A DNA stretch of 64,000 bases from Kiritimatiellaeota bacterium B1221 (GCA_029269125.1 JARHXX010000006.1:62001-126000); one strand, 5' to 3'. Counted from the stretch's first letter, positions 7,139 to 14,847 are shown. Notes: generated from the letters alone by a model not told the origin. Translations and numbers: made by a program.

Positions 7139-7990
7139 ATGAAAGCACCTCAACAACGAATCAGTGAATGGGGAAAACTCGATATCCGCCTTTACTATTG
7201 CTACCAGGGAACCGTTCCCCATACCGGTCACGGTATCACGGAAAACCCTACTTTTTCTTCCTGGCTGGTCCTCCGCGGCTGGGGAGAAATTACCGACGAA
7301 CACGCCACAACCGCTTTGAGAGCGAATGTGGGAGAATGGATGTTTGTGAAGCCCGGCAAACGTCATCAGCAATTTAGCCCACGGGCAAAATTATTATCCG
7401 TAAGTTTCTTCGCCAAACATTTCACCGGTCAACCCCTGGTAAACCAGGAACACTCTTTCAAATGTGAGGACAGGGATTTTCCTCATTTAAAACGAGCCGC
7501 CAGCCGTCTGCGTGCAAAAGTTCCGGAAGCGGAATACCTTAATCCGGTGGTAGATCTCATGCAACATCTCAACATCCAACAATCGTTATTGGAATGGATC
7601 AGGGAATGGTGCACGGTCATCAGTAAAACAACTTATAAAATGGAAACCGTCCTCGGATATGATTCACGGGTGGTGGCGGCCCTTCAATATCTGGAAACCC
7701 ACATCGGCGATAAGCATCTGACCTCTGAACAGGTCGGCCACGAAGTGGGGTTAAGCGTCGGACAACTCAATCGGCTCTTTCTAAAGGAAACGGGGCGGAC
7801 CCTTAATGAATTCCGGGTCCGGCAACGCATTGATCACGCCAGCCGCCTGCTCACCCAGTCGGATACTTCGCTTAAAGAAATCGCTTATAATTTAGGATTT
7901 TCCTATCCATCACATTTTTCCGCATGGTTTAAGCAACAGCGCGGCAAAACCCCCTCCCAGCATCGCAAAGACAATGTTCGTTTTGTATGA
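7139..7990 (+). CDS. AraC-family transcriptional regulator
   Basis: 283 residues. The N-terminal half looks like a cupin-type sensor domain (VGEWMFVKPGKRHQQF at about residues 63-78). The C-terminal ~100 residues form the double helix-turn-helix of AraC/XylS proteins: LTSEQVGHEVGLSVGQLNRL and then SLKEIAYNLGFSYPSHFSAW with the family ending FKQQRGKTPSQHR. Many such verrucomicrobial proteins control sugar-utilisation genes, but the ligand cannot be read here. It is transcribed away from the PEP-CTERM gene, and an esterase remnant follows immediately. No clear Shine-Dalgarno precedes the ATG. Confidence 0.92.
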   Translation: MKAPQQRISEWGKLDIRLYYCYQGTVPHTGHGITENPTFSSWLVLRGWGEITDEHATTALRANVGEWMFVKPGKRHQQFSPRAKLLSVSFFAKHFTGQPLVNQEHSFKCEDRDFPHLKRAASRLRAKVPEAEYLNPVVDLMQHLNIQQSLLEWIREWCTVISKTTYKMETVLGYDSRVVAALQYLETHIGDKHLTSEQVGHEVGLSVGQLNRLFLKETGRTLNEFRVRQRIDHASRLLTQSDTSLKEIAYNLGFSYPSHFSAWFKQQRGKTPSQHRKDNVRFV

Positions 7991-9692: not shown

Positions 9693-9712
9693 AATCGATA
9701 TCGATATCGATT
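9693..9712. promoter_or_regulatory. Perfect 20-bp palindrome between purU and the ECF sigma gene
   Basis: AATCGATATCGATATCGATT is its own reverse complement. It lies 33 bases from the purU start and about 81 bases from the sigma-factor start, in the divergent intergenic region. It could be a dimeric regulator site; no binding protein is identified. Confidence 0.5.
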
Positions 9713-9793
9713 ACACCTGAAACAAACCAAGAGCAAAGATCTCGATGTCGATTTGCGATTGCCAATTCTCACACAAGCCTTAAAAGGGGGCAT

Positions 9794-10366
9794 ATGGATT
9801 CGGACCGAGAACTAGACCCCACCCGTTGGCTGGCAGAGCATGGAGATGTACTCTATCGCTTTGCTTTGGGACGGGTGCGTGACCCGCAAACCGCAGAAGA
9901 CCTGGTGCAGGACACCTATCTGGCCGCCATAAAAGGGGCCCAATCCTTCTCCGGACTTTCCAAGGAACGCACCTGGCTGGTGGGCATTCTCAAACATAAA
10001 ATCATCGATTATTTCCGTAAACACAAACGCACCTTCCTCAGTGAAGATCTGGAATTGCGCGAACAGGATCCCGAAACCGCCCTTGACCGCAAAGGAAATT
10101 GGACGGTCGGTCAATCTCCTTGGATCACCCAACCGGAAACCGTTCTGGAAATGAAAGAATTTTGGGGCCACCTCAACGGATGCCTGGAAAACCTCCCCGA
10201 ACAGCAGCGTAAAGTTTACATTCTACGGGAACTGGAAGAACACTCGGCCGAAGAAATTTGCGAAGATCTCGAAATGAGTCCTTCCAATCTATGGGTCACC
10301 CTCCACCGGGCACGCTTACAGTTAAAAGACTGCCTCACCCATAAAGGATTAGGAACCAAGAAATGA
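9794..10366 (+). CDS. ECF-type RNA polymerase sigma-70 factor
   Basis: 190 residues. Region sigma2 is at about 10-80 (AEDLVQDTYLAAIKGAQSFS, then KERTWLVGILKHKIIDYFRK). The sigma4 helix-turn-helix is at about 132-180 (LPEQQRKVYILRELEEHSAE, then MSPSNLWVTLHRARLQLKDC). A linker of about 50 residues separates them. ATG 9794 has AAGGGGG at good spacing; the frame is open back to 9641, but that would overlap purU. Its stop overlaps the start of the methyltransferase (ATGA), so they are coupled. No zinc-finger or FecR-like anti-sigma gene is adjacent, which is unusual for an ECF factor. Confidence 0.93.
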   Translation: MDSDRELDPTRWLAEHGDVLYRFALGRVRDPQTAEDLVQDTYLAAIKGAQSFSGLSKERTWLVGILKHKIIDYFRKHKRTFLSEDLELREQDPETALDRKGNWTVGQSPWITQPETVLEMKEFWGHLNGCLENLPEQQRKVYILRELEEHSAEEICEDLEMSPSNLWVTLHRARLQLKDCLTHKGLGTKK

Positions 10367-11163
10367 TTCAACGCATTACCCCTGCCGGTGAGGAACACGC
10401 AGCCTTCTGGAATGAATTGGCGGAAGAGTACCAGTCCGAAACCCGAATCACGACCTCAGATTTTCATTTTGGCCCCCTCCTCCCCGGCGAACAGGAATTG
10501 GCGCTGCTCCCCAAAGAACTGAAAGGTAAGCTCTGTCTGGAATTAGGTGCCGGCGCAGGACAAAACAGTATTTACCTGGCAGGGAAAGGCGCACAGTGCA
10601 CCGCACTGGACATCAGCGAAAACCAGCTCAATCACGGCCGGAAACTTGCCGACGCCGAGGGAGTCGCGGTCGAATTTGTGTTGGCCGACTTGGATCACCT
10701 CCCTGAATTGCCTGAAAAATATGACCTCATCCATTCCGCCTATGGTATCCCCTTCTCCACCCACCCCGAAGCCTTAATTCAGCATTGTGCAGACCTGCTG
10801 CACCCCGGCGGACATATGCTTTTCAGCATGGGACACCCGGTCTATGCCGGCGAGTGGCTGGAGCTGGATGACGATCAGGGCATTTTCCTGCAAAATTACT
10901 TTCACCCTCACCCGGATGTGCGCGAAGGAGAAAGTTCCGCAGTACAAGCCATGGCCTATCCGCTCTCCGAAGTGGTCGCATGGTTACGCAAAGCCGGCCT
11001 GCAACTCATGGACCTGCGTGAGCCCGCATCCCTGCCCGTAGACAAAATGAGTCAGGCAGAGATTGATGCACGCGTACCTTACTACAGTGAAGCCTGGGCA
11101 GAACAGGTGAATGAACTTTCCAAATTTCCCGTTGTTGCCATTTTTTCCGCCACGAAACTTTAA
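10363..11163 (+). CDS. Class I SAM-dependent methyltransferase
   Basis: 266 residues. Motif I is CLELGAGAGQNSIYLA (about residues 58-73), followed by the acidic motif II region CTALDIS and a post-I VLADLDHLP; PGGHMLFSMGHPVY is typical of UbiE/Tam-like methyltransferases. The substrate is unknown. Its start overlaps the ECF sigma gene by 4 bases, and a radical SAM gene follows after 17 bases, so the three are almost certainly one transcript. It is not close to any named methyltransferase I can recognise. Confidence 0.9.
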   Translation: MIQRITPAGEEHAAFWNELAEEYQSETRITTSDFHFGPLLPGEQELALLPKELKGKLCLELGAGAGQNSIYLAGKGAQCTALDISENQLNHGRKLADAEGVAVEFVLADLDHLPELPEKYDLIHSAYGIPFSTHPEALIQHCADLLHPGGHMLFSMGHPVYAGEWLELDDDQGIFLQNYFHPHPDVREGESSAVQAMAYPLSEVVAWLRKAGLQLMDLREPASLPVDKMSQAEIDARVPYYSEAWAEQVNELSKFPVVAIFSATKL

Positions 11164-11180
11164 CAGCCAAAGGAGACGCC

Positions 11181-12284
11181 ATGAGTGGGAAAAAAGGTTT
11201 TGATGTCGATTTCAAACAAGCGCCCCTGCTCGTGATCTGGGAGGTCACCCGTGCCTGCACTTTGGCTTGTCAACACTGCCGTGCCTCCGCTATCGACTAC
11301 CGGCATCCCGACGAACTGAATCTGGAAGAGGGTAAAATCCTGTTGGATGAAATCAAAGCCATGGGAACCCCTATTGTGGTATTCACCGGTGGAGACCCTT
11401 TACAACGAACCGATCTGGAAGAGCTGATTCGCTACGGAAAATCTATTGGCCTTCGTATTGGCACCATTCCCGCCGGCACTCCGCGTCTGGATAAAACCCG
11501 TATGCGCTCCCTCAAAGAAAGCGGCGTCGATCAGGTGGCATTCAGCATTGACGCCCCCAATGCCGCAGACCATGACTCTTTCCGTCAGGTGCCCGGATCT
11601 TATGATCTGACCCTGCAGGGAGCCCGCTGGGCACAGGAGCTGAATATTCCTTTGCAAATCAACACCGTCTTCCATCAAGGCAACCAACATCAGATCGATG
11701 AACTCTGCGATTTAGTGAAATCTCTGGAAGTCGTTTTCTGGGAAGTTTTTTTTCTCGTACCCACCGGACGGGGCACTCAACTCAGCAGTTGCACTGCCGA
11801 AGAGATGGAAGTGATCTTTGGTAAACTCTACGCACTCTCAAAGAAAGTTCCCTTCGTCATCAAAGTCACGGAAGCGCAACACTACCGGCGCCACATCCGC
11901 CAACAGGAACGTAAAGTAGGTCCCCCCAGCAGCGTCACCCATCGAAACCCTTACGAGGTTCAGGCCAAAACAGCACACCCCCATGCGATCGGCCGCTCCT
12001 CGAAAGTGGTTAACGCCGGCAACGGCTTCTGTTTCATCGATCACACCGGGAATATTTGCCCCAGTGGATTCCTGTCGGAAGAACGGGGAAATGTTCGCAC
12101 CCACTCCCTCGCCCATATTTACCGAGAAGACGAATTTTTTGTCAACCTCCGCAACCCCAAACTCCTCAAAGGCAAATGCGGACGTTGCGAATTCAAAACC
12201 AGCTGCGGCGGTTCCCGCTCCCGCGCCTGGGCCGTTACCGGCGACGCCTGGGCCGAAGAACCCTTTTGTGTGCTGGAGCGCTGA
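11181..12284 (+). CDS. Radical SAM/SPASM protein, TIGR04053-like
   Basis: 367 residues. The radical SAM 4Fe-4S motif CxxxCxxC is at Cys26, Cys30 and Cys33 (TRACTLACQHCRA), followed by the SAM-binding FTGGDP at about 68-73. The C-terminus has a SPASM-type auxiliary cluster set: Cys284, Cys293, CGRC at 333-336, Cys342 and Cys363. The opening DFKQAPLLVIWEVTRAC and the block VFFLVPTGRG match what I know of the TIGR04053 family, whose reaction is undefined. Relatives (PqqE, NirJ, AhbD) act in cofactor or heme synthesis or on peptides. AAAGGAG precedes the ATG. No small precursor-peptide gene is apparent beside it. Confidence 0.92.
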   Translation: MSGKKGFDVDFKQAPLLVIWEVTRACTLACQHCRASAIDYRHPDELNLEEGKILLDEIKAMGTPIVVFTGGDPLQRTDLEELIRYGKSIGLRIGTIPAGTPRLDKTRMRSLKESGVDQVAFSIDAPNAADHDSFRQVPGSYDLTLQGARWAQELNIPLQINTVFHQGNQHQIDELCDLVKSLEVVFWEVFFLVPTGRGTQLSSCTAEEMEVIFGKLYALSKKVPFVIKVTEAQHYRRHIRQQERKVGPPSSVTHRNPYEVQAKTAHPHAIGRSSKVVNAGNGFCFIDHTGNICPSGFLSEERGNVRTHSLAHIYREDEFFVNLRNPKLLKGKCGRCEFKTSCGGSRSRAWAVTGDAWAEEPFCVLER

Positions 12285-12435
12285 CCCCGATCACAAAAAC
12301 TGTGGCACATCTGATCGATCAGGATCCGTCTCCGGGATCGGGAACAGAAAGCAGACCGCAGTTAAAAACCGGATTCAGAGCAAACACCACCATCATCGTT
12401 GATCCCAGAACCCACGATTTTCTAAACGCCGCTTC

Positions 12436-14847
12436 ATGCTCTTTATGAAGTATTTTTTTCCAAAACCATTTCCCGTCCCCATCCTTTTTGTACTGATTGC
12501 AGTTTATGCACTGGGGATGATGAACCTGTCCATTCTCCGGGCAGACGATGACATGGATGACACAAGCTCCCAGGAAGACGGCATGGAAGCCTTACTGGAA
12601 AAAATCCCCCATATAAAAGTTCCCCGGGTGGAAATGGAAATTAAAATAGATGGAAAACTGGATGAAACCGCCTGGCTAATGGCGGAAAAAATAGACCTTA
12701 AATTCGAGTCATATCCCGCATTGATGGCAGCCGCACCCGTAAAAACACACGCACAATTTTTAATATCTGACAACAACCTTTATATTTCCTTCATCGCCCA
12801 GGATCCGGATCCAGACAAAATTCAAGCCCCCTTACGCGACCGTGATGCGATTGAACTGGATGATTATGTAGGCGTTGCACTGGACCCTGACGGAAAACGG
12901 ATGCGGAGTTACGAATTTTATGTCAGTGCCTCCGGGGTCCAGGCCGACTGGGTGCGGAACAGTGTGGAGGACAAACGGACCCGTGAATGGGATGCGGACT
13001 GGGAATCCGCATCGCAAAAAAATGAAACAGGTTATTCCGTAGAAATGCGCATTCCCCTCGGCACGGTAGATCTTCCAAATGATGCCACCCATCGACTGAT
13101 GATCATCAAGCGGCATTACCCACGGGAAATACGTCACTACTTAACCAGCGTGGCAATGATCACCCCTTATCAGGGGGAAACAGACACCGGAAACAACCAG
13201 TTCAAAATTATTCCAGCCATCACCCTTAATCCTGAATGGAGCCGGGATATTGAAAACGGTGAAAACTATTCCCGCGAAGAAAATTTTGAGTTAGGCGCCG
13301 ACTTAGAATACCGCTTCTCCCCTTCCTGGGGAATGGATCTCACCATCAACCCCAATTATTTAGAGGTTGAAGCAGACTTAACTTCCACCAGCATCAACGA
13401 TCCCTTTACCAGCCTCACCCCGGAAAAACGTCCGTTTTTTGTGAAAGAAAGCGACGTATTCGGCACACCGTATGATCTGGTCTACACCCGAAACATCGAA
13501 GACCCCGGTGTCGGATTTCAATTCGGAGGAAGTGAAGGCAAATGGGTTACCGGAAACTTTTTGGTTCATGACCGGGAATTAAGCGTCATCGTCCCCGGCA
13601 ATCTGGGTTCCGAACGCGCCGAACTGGATGTTGAAAGTACTTCGGGCGCCTTTAGAGTTCGGCATGACCGCAAAAATGGTGAATCGGTTGGACTCATGGG
13701 AACCCTGCGTGATGCAGAAAACGGTTATCACAATTATGTGGCCGGCGCGGATTTTCTTAAGAAACTGGGGAGTTATCACACCTTCAGAGGTCAATGGCTT
13801 TATTCCGATACCCGATACTCGGAGGATTTCACTGAAGACCTTTACGACCCACCGGATGATTTGGATCCTGCAGAAGACACCGGCATTCCTGGTGAAACAG
13901 GTTTTTCTGAACAAGTCCTCCGCGCAGATCCCGGTGAAACCATAAGCGATGATGCCTGGCAACTCAGTTATAAATATGAACCCCGTGCCGGATACGTCAC
14001 CGTGCTGTACCGGGATGCGGGAGAAGATTTCCGGGGCGATCTGGGATACATCCCGCTGACCGATTACCGACAGGGCATTCTCAATGCAGGGGTCAATAAA
14101 TATTTTGAAACCGGCAGTGCTGGTGTTTCCCGAATCCGCTTATCAAGTAATGTTTATAAAATGGAGAGTCAGGCGGGTGAAGAGATCATGAGCGGAGGAG
14201 AGCTCTGGTTCAACTACTGGGGGCTCTATCAATCCTGGTTCCGCTTAGGCTATCGAAACCGTGACCGGGTCGCACGGCGGTTCAATCAACAGGAATTGTC
14301 CATCGACGGAAATGCCACCCCATTGAATGAAGAGCAGTGGATTGTTCGCGTTGAAAACGCCTTGGCAAAAAATGTACGTTTCACCATTGCAGGCAGGTTC
14401 GGCAGCCAAATTGATACCGACAATTACCGCTTAGGAAACCTGGTTGAACTTGAACCTGAAATCAGATGGAACATCAACGACCGGGTGGAGTTGAATATTC
14501 AAAATACCTACCGAACCCTCGACATTGCCGACGGACAGGTTTTCAGGGAAAATTATTTGCGGCTGAGCATGATCTATCAGCTCGAAAAAGGGTCCTTTTT
14601 ACGTCTGACCCTGATCGATGACTATAATACCCGAAATCAAAATTTATATCTCTATGAAGAACAAGACGACGAAGAACGGGACAGCTCCCTCGAACTGCTT
14701 TTCGCCATCAAACCTTCTCAACTCAACACTTTTTTTATGGGCCTCAAAACAGAATTTTCCGAATACGACCTCGAAAATGCCAGTGGACTCAGGGACGATG
14801 AATTTTCAATTTTTCTCAAATACAGCCGTGCCTTCCAGGTAAACTAA
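12436..14847 (+). CDS. DUF5916 outer-membrane-like protein with CBM9-like N-terminal domain
   Basis: 803 residues. The signal peptide is in the first ~36 residues (PVPILFVLIAVYALGMMNLS). A carbohydrate-binding family 9-like domain follows (about 55-230: IDGKLDETAWLMAEKIDLKF, DDYVGVALDPDGKRMRSYEF). The remainder is beta-strand-rich with FTSLTPEKRPFFVKESDVF, the hallmark of DUF5916, and ends in an amphipathic strand (FSIFLKYSRAFQVN) as outer-membrane barrels do. The function is unknown; the family is often near surface-glycan or metalloprotein genes. It lies 151 bases after the radical SAM gene on the same strand. ATG 12445 is an equally possible start. Confidence 0.85.
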   Translation: MLFMKYFFPKPFPVPILFVLIAVYALGMMNLSILRADDDMDDTSSQEDGMEALLEKIPHIKVPRVEMEIKIDGKLDETAWLMAEKIDLKFESYPALMAAAPVKTHAQFLISDNNLYISFIAQDPDPDKIQAPLRDRDAIELDDYVGVALDPDGKRMRSYEFYVSASGVQADWVRNSVEDKRTREWDADWESASQKNETGYSVEMRIPLGTVDLPNDATHRLMIIKRHYPREIRHYLTSVAMITPYQGETDTGNNQFKIIPAITLNPEWSRDIENGENYSREENFELGADLEYRFSPSWGMDLTINPNYLEVEADLTSTSINDPFTSLTPEKRPFFVKESDVFGTPYDLVYTRNIEDPGVGFQFGGSEGKWVTGNFLVHDRELSVIVPGNLGSERAELDVESTSGAFRVRHDRKNGESVGLMGTLRDAENGYHNYVAGADFLKKLGSYHTFRGQWLYSDTRYSEDFTEDLYDPPDDLDPAEDTGIPGETGFSEQVLRADPGETISDDAWQLSYKYEPRAGYVTVLYRDAGEDFRGDLGYIPLTDYRQGILNAGVNKYFETGSAGVSRIRLSSNVYKMESQAGEEIMSGGELWFNYWGLYQSWFRLGYRNRDRVARRFNQQELSIDGNATPLNEEQWIVRVENALAKNVRFTIAGRFGSQIDTDNYRLGNLVELEPEIRWNINDRVELNIQNTYRTLDIADGQVFRENYLRLSMIYQLEKGSFLRLTLIDDYNTRNQNLYLYEEQDDEERDSSLELLFAIKPSQLNTFFMGLKTEFSEYDLENASGLRDDEFSIFLKYSRAFQVN

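Follow-up and report, generated by a model that had tools for sequence, protein, structure and literature searches.

Two gene modules at a Kiritimatiellaeota locus: a conserved sigma factor-methyltransferase pair without an adjacent anti-sigma factor and a relocated radical SAM gene with a predicted role in heme synthesis

In Neisseria meningitidis, the extracytoplasmic function (ECF) sigma factor sigma-E (NMB2144) is encoded directly ahead of MseR (NMB2145), a cytoplasmic zinc anti-sigma factor (PMC2893595). Other ECF groups, including HrpL, P. gingivalis SigH, and ECF122 with its DNA-repair methyltransferase, have no local anti-sigma factor, and control by synthesis or by a neighboring protein that is not an anti-sigma factor has been proposed for them (PMC8999054). 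In a separate field, bacteria with the coproporphyrin route to heme are said to require an oxygen-independent counterpart of ChdC that is yet to be found (PMC10965808), and co-localization of ahbD with hemY, hemH, and hemQ has been noted earlier (PMC10548856). Here we analyze positions 9,794 to 14,847 of a 64,000-nt stretch of DNA, hereafter the window, from Kiritimatiellaeota bacterium B1221 (GCA_029269125.1 JARHXX010000006.1:62001-126000), where an ECF sigma factor gene is followed by genes for a methyltransferase and a radical S-adenosylmethionine (SAM)/SPASM enzyme. We consider it likely that this locus joins two modules in one transcript, namely, a sigma factor-methyltransferase pair that lacks an anti-sigma factor and a relocated gene for an AhbD-like heme b synthase.

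Gene order in the window and in related genomes

The sigma factor (190 amino acids [aa]; 9794 to 10366, plus strand, with its ATG at 9794 and its stop at 10366) belongs to the TIGR02943 family, narrowly passing the cutoff (167.6 bits versus 162.2), and also matches PF04542 and PF08281. Its gene overlaps by 4 bases that of the methyltransferase (266 aa; 10363 to 11163, plus strand), which is therefore probably translationally coupled to it and which matches Pfam Methyltransf_25/11, making it a generic class I SAM-dependent enzyme. The radical SAM gene (11181 to 12284, plus strand) follows after a 17-base gap in which a ribosome-binding site, AAGGAG, can be read directly (11170 to 11175, plus strand), and its product matches TIGR04053 over the full length (436.2 bits; curated cutoff, 395). 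This gene order, together with all of the coordinates, the overlap, and the gaps (including one of 151 bases before a fourth gene), agrees with the initial annotation of the window.

We searched 116 related genomes of the class, among which the family of the window genome (G000) comprises 11 members (G000 to G010). Searching with the methyltransferase and then reading gene order placed the sigma factor and methyltransferase genes side by side in all 11, which exceeds what chance would give. The pair persists in G001, G003, and G005 to G010, where the radical SAM gene, if found, sits elsewhere, and the genes flanking the pair vary between family genomes. In other families, most of the methyltransferase-bearing genomes examined have no sigma factor gene beside it. 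The two genes are thus a conserved unit that is fixed in one bacterial family. A scan of genome contigs with the single methyltransferase sequence returned one weak, irrelevant locus only, and a search of the literature on TIGR02943 turned up only phage work. In another class of the phylum, a relative of the methyltransferase (G445; L182:4482-5879) comes before a different ECF sigma factor, whose best model is of the Rhodopirellula/Verrucomicrobium type, and a further open reading frame, perhaps its anti-sigma factor.

The radical SAM gene behaves differently. A TIGR04053 search of the same genomes, with gene order read in 40 stretches, located it next to the pair in just G000, G002, and G004, which form one clade and represent 3 of the 11 family genomes and 3 of the 5 genus members. 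Ten family genomes have the gene, and in 7 of these it lies apart from the pair. It directly follows what looks like a sugar ABC transporter permease gene in G001, G005, and G006, and a TTGACA-N17-TATAAG promoter of its own precedes it in G008 and G009. Because G000, G004, and G002 cluster together in both the radical SAM and the sigma factor trees, the family gene appears to be vertically inherited, with most simply one move, by which it would have come to lie behind the pair in the ancestor of these three genomes. We therefore regard it as very likely that the locus is modular, consisting of the sigma factor-methyltransferase pair and a separately derived radical SAM gene. Adjacency in relatives, which the initial annotation had named as its own refuting test, held for the pair and failed for the radical SAM gene, so that the three-gene order is rejected as a conserved unit.

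The window genome has a second TIGR04053 copy (L075; G000:C81:6386-19399), which is also found in G002 and G004 and whose ancestry in the radical SAM tree differs from that of the window copy. The L075 cluster contains an Rrf2 regulator, a copper NirK-like nitrite reductase, an FGE-type (NirV-like) protein, SCO1, and the radical SAM enzyme.

The initial annotation had proposed a dedicated three-gene pathway that is induced by stress and modifies a cofactor, lipid, or surface component. The tight spacing of the three genes in three species and the joint encoding of two SAM-using enzymes would fit such a pathway, as would the fact that these same three genomes hold the nirK-linked second copy. 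We nevertheless judge it very improbable, because only those three genus members have the radical SAM gene behind the pair. In relatives it stands behind the permease gene or its own promoter while the pair stays together without it, the methyltransferase usually has no sigma factor neighbor in the other families, and TIGR04053 follows the heme pathway across genomes, not the methyltransferase.

Absence of an adjacent anti-sigma factor and control of the sigma factor

No anti-sigma open reading frame lies between the sigma factor and methyltransferase genes in the window, and the 4-base overlap leaves no space for one. In all 11 family members the position after the sigma factor is taken by the methyltransferase, and none has an adjacent anti-sigma gene. 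Since our first set of sigma factor relatives had been retrieved through the anti-sigma factor itself, the comparison was redone on 30 loci obtained from a sigma factor search, among which the sigma factor was not located in 4 and no anti-sigma factor was recognized in 5 remoter loci. The four nearest sigma factors outside the family (in G044, G068, G011, and G021) all have a small zinc anti-sigma factor immediately downstream. The lack of a local anti-sigma factor noted in the initial annotation was thus borne out, and the nearest outside relatives of the sigma factor do carry one.

G021, which belongs to a different family of the class, has the sigma factor first, then a 95-aa zinc finger protein, and then the methyltransferase. 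The Cys4/His30/Cys34/Cys37 spacing of this anti-sigma factor matches that of meningococcal MseR, sharing its four Cys/His positions, and it is through this protein that the likeness to the NMB2144/MseR pair is drawn. The window family itself has a methyltransferase in the anti-sigma position. Because the four nearest relatives carry an anti-sigma factor and G021 has it between sigma factor and methyltransferase, it was probably lost in the stem of the family, with G021 keeping the intermediate order. The ancestral module would have been a TIGR02943 ECF sigma factor gene followed by one for a small cytoplasmic MseR-type zinc anti-sigma factor, and its loss would have left the methyltransferase gene directly following and overlapping the sigma factor gene. 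The pair would then be a naturally occurring example of anti-sigma loss from an ECF factor, with an intermediate order still in existence. It resembles ECF122 in the absence of a local anti-sigma factor and differs from it in that its methyltransferase is a class I SAM enzyme and not a 6-O-methylguanine repair protein.

Our confidence in any statement on how the sigma factor is switched on is low. Its activity would most likely be set by the amount made, from a vegetative-type and nearly leaderless promoter, or by a protein acting in trans. A promoter-like element, TTGCCA-N16-TAAAAG (9759 to 9786, plus strand), ends 7 bases upstream of the sigma factor ATG and appears to be of the vegetative-sigma type, not the ECF type, with a nearly leaderless start. 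The pattern TTG[ACT]NN-N16-18-TANNN[TAG], ending 2 to 9 bases before the ATG, occurs upstream of the sigma factor gene in 8 of 12 genomes, compared with a mean of 0.19 and a maximum of 2 in base-shuffled controls, the pattern having been fixed after inspection of the upstream sequences. Similar vegetative-type promoters precede other genes of the window, and upstream of a paralogous sigma factor gene lies a vegetative promoter close to consensus (TTGACT), again with a start that is almost leaderless; given these resemblances, synthesis by the housekeeping sigma factor is likely. No ECF-type (AAC/CGT) autoregulatory motif was seen by eye in the 12 upstream regions, the same ones from which the vegetative-type element emerged; the conserved element there reads TTGC-N16/17-TAnnnT. 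The initial annotation had called for a search for a conserved motif before the operon, and the one recovered looks vegetative. Between window positions 7139 and 23856, several genes start a few bases from a TTGAC-type promoter, which suggests nearly leaderless transcripts as a common feature of the B1221 genome.

Control in trans is possible because the same contig keeps the paralogous TIGR02943-like sigma factor together with its own 91-aa zinc anti-sigma factor (G000:C111:166.3-167.2 kb; L184:2286-3162). The operon sigma factor might be held by this protein, encoded ~94 kb away, and so be a standard anti-sigma-controlled ECF factor. The paralogous pair is kept in most family genomes, its sigma factor is 43% identical to that of the operon (a distant relative), and remote anti-sigma factors have a precedent in Sinorhizobium RpoE2 (PMC8103513). 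We consider such an arrangement doubtful, however, given that the two sigma factors fall into separate, well-supported clades, that the remote anti-sigma factor adjoins its own sigma factor, and that G003 and G007 (both incomplete genomes) retain the operon sigma factor but showed no detected copy of this anti-sigma factor. It would in any case concern the control of the first module only and is compatible with a heme role for the radical SAM enzyme. Far less probable still, to the point of being a long shot, is that the methyltransferase has replaced the lost anti-sigma factor, binding the sigma factor and releasing it upon a change in substrate or SAM; if this were true, an enzyme would be the sensor of an ECF switch.

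The radical SAM enzyme and the coproheme pathway

AhbD has been studied in M. barkeri, D. vulgaris, and Haloferax volcanii, in the last of which deletion of ahbD (HVO_2144) blocks only anaerobic growth and heme rescues the mutant (PMC5746218). AhbD proteins carry the motifs CX3CX2C and, C-terminally, CX2CX5CX20-38C (PMC10452713). The window enzyme has the cysteine pattern described there for non-methanogen AhbD: Cys26/30/33 (CX3CX2C) and Cys333/336/342/363 (CX2CX5CX20C) are invariant in the 33 TIGR04053 members compared, so that the radical SAM and AuxII cysteines are kept, while the AuxI cysteines are replaced by Glu231, Val277, Ser295 (Ala in one member), and Ser345, with Glu/Ser/Ser as in non-methanogen AhbD. 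After TIGR04053, its next-best model is TIGR04545 (AhbD; 321.8 bits).

Outside the phylum, proteins 43 to 48% identical to the window enzyme are encoded on plasmids of Haloferax, Halobaculum, Thermus, and Deinococcus. The Haloferax larsenii gene (501.6 bits to TIGR04053) adjoins a halocyanin gene and a norB-like gene, and its neighbors match those of H. volcanii ahbD. No publication on TIGR04053 turned up in our literature search. The initial annotation was right that the database label carries no assigned reaction; a haloarchaeal AhbD ortholog nonetheless belongs to the family, and its H. volcanii counterpart has a knockout phenotype in anaerobic heme synthesis.

Of the 45 genomes with HemY among the 116, 33 have TIGR04053, compared with 2 of the 71 without HemY (Fisher p, 1e-16). 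In related genomes the TIGR04053 gene comes behind hemY, and in 8 genomes the two share a strand and lie within ~1 kb of each other. HemN scored above its cutoff in exactly eight genomes (G025, G038, G044, G068, G077, G095, G103, and G115), five of which also have HemF, and these are precisely the HemY genomes having neither ChdC nor TIGR04053. All of the other 37 HemY genomes have ChdC, TIGR04053, or both. Six HemY genomes (G015, G019, G032, G043, G089, and G106) have TIGR04053 and no ChdC, HemN, or HemF, and ferrochelatase was present in all four of these that were tested; judged by gene content, TIGR04053 is the sole candidate coproheme decarboxylase in the six. The window genome encodes HemY, ferrochelatase, a ChdC-like protein, and the two TIGR04053 copies, and ChdC accompanies TIGR04053 in 27 of 35 genomes, as it does AhbD in H. 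volcanii, so that a simple replacement of ChdC is rejected for the window genome. In G075, hemL and hemE flank a ChdC-like gene, with hemY coming next.

On these grounds, we predict with good confidence that the window enzyme is an oxygen-independent heme b synthase, that is, an AhbD-like coproheme decarboxylase. It would decarboxylate coproheme twice in the absence of oxygen, complementing ChdC, which depends on peroxide. The step, propionate to vinyl, is the one also carried out by HemN/HemF and ChdC; HemN/HemF act before iron insertion and ChdC needs peroxide, whereas the window enzyme would use coproheme without oxygen. It shares with AhbD a context of heme and denitrification genes and differs in that its coproheme would be supplied by HemY and ferrochelatase instead of being made from siroheme, and in the placement of its gene behind a sigma factor. 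The partition of heme genes among genomes puts forward TIGR04053, an unnamed database family, as the oxygen-independent ChdC partner in this class.

The enzyme might instead act on another tetrapyrrole, of the heme d1 type or another heme derivative. Its moderate similarity to NirJ2 (212 bits), the nirK cluster around the second copy, and the nitrite reductase genes that adjoin Thermus TIGR04053 copies point that way. This is improbable, since the AhbD score is well above those of the NirJ models, the nitrite reductase beside the second copy is copper type and does not use heme d1, TIGR04053 is the only candidate for the coproheme decarboxylase that six genomes need, and it is heme that rescues the Haloferax ahbD deletion.

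Several points weigh against the two-module reading with a heme b synthase. The AhbD score of the window enzyme is below the TIGR04545 cutoff of 500, which reflects the methanogen and sulfate reducer type of AhbD. Because it fails that cutoff, it is filed as a TIGR04053 protein that would work like AhbD; the H. larsenii ortholog is likewise below it (342.8 bits). That gene is equated with HVO_2144 by family and neighbors only, and AhbD forms with such a cysteine pattern were unassayed when PMC10452713 was written. The co-occurrence of TIGR04053 with HemY partly reflects shared ancestry and not independent events, and the ChdC-like proteins are divergent, with a Pfam match that covers half of the model and no NCBIfam match. 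For the first module, loss of the anti-sigma factor is preferred over separate gains elsewhere by parsimony, as the simplest account. The shared transcript of the three genes is deduced from their spacing alone, and the sigma factor may directly control the radical SAM gene in G000, G002, and G004.

The methyltransferase fold and flanking features

The AlphaFold2 model of the methyltransferase is a single domain of high confidence (pLDDT, 94.7). Its best Foldseek matches are the uncharacterized methyltransferases 3g5l and 3bkw, and the nearest match with a known methyltransferase function is the bacillithiol methyltransferase NmbA (9ri2). A specific function could not be taken from the fold, as the structural matches are only generic; judging from the model, the enzyme probably acts on a small molecule.

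Downstream of the radical SAM gene, the fourth gene (12436 to 14847, plus strand) encodes a CBM9-like, probably outer-membrane protein. CBM9_1 (45.3 bits) was its sole Pfam match at an E value of ≤0.01, and DUF5916, the family to which it had initially been assigned, was absent at that threshold. It was rejected as a member of the unit, having no homologue beside the pair or the radical SAM gene in relatives. Between purU and the sigma factor gene lies a self-complementary repeat, TCGATATCGATATCGA (9695 to 9710), which was not seen at the same place in G002 or G004 and of which the window has no other copy when up to 2 mismatches are allowed (0.02 expected).

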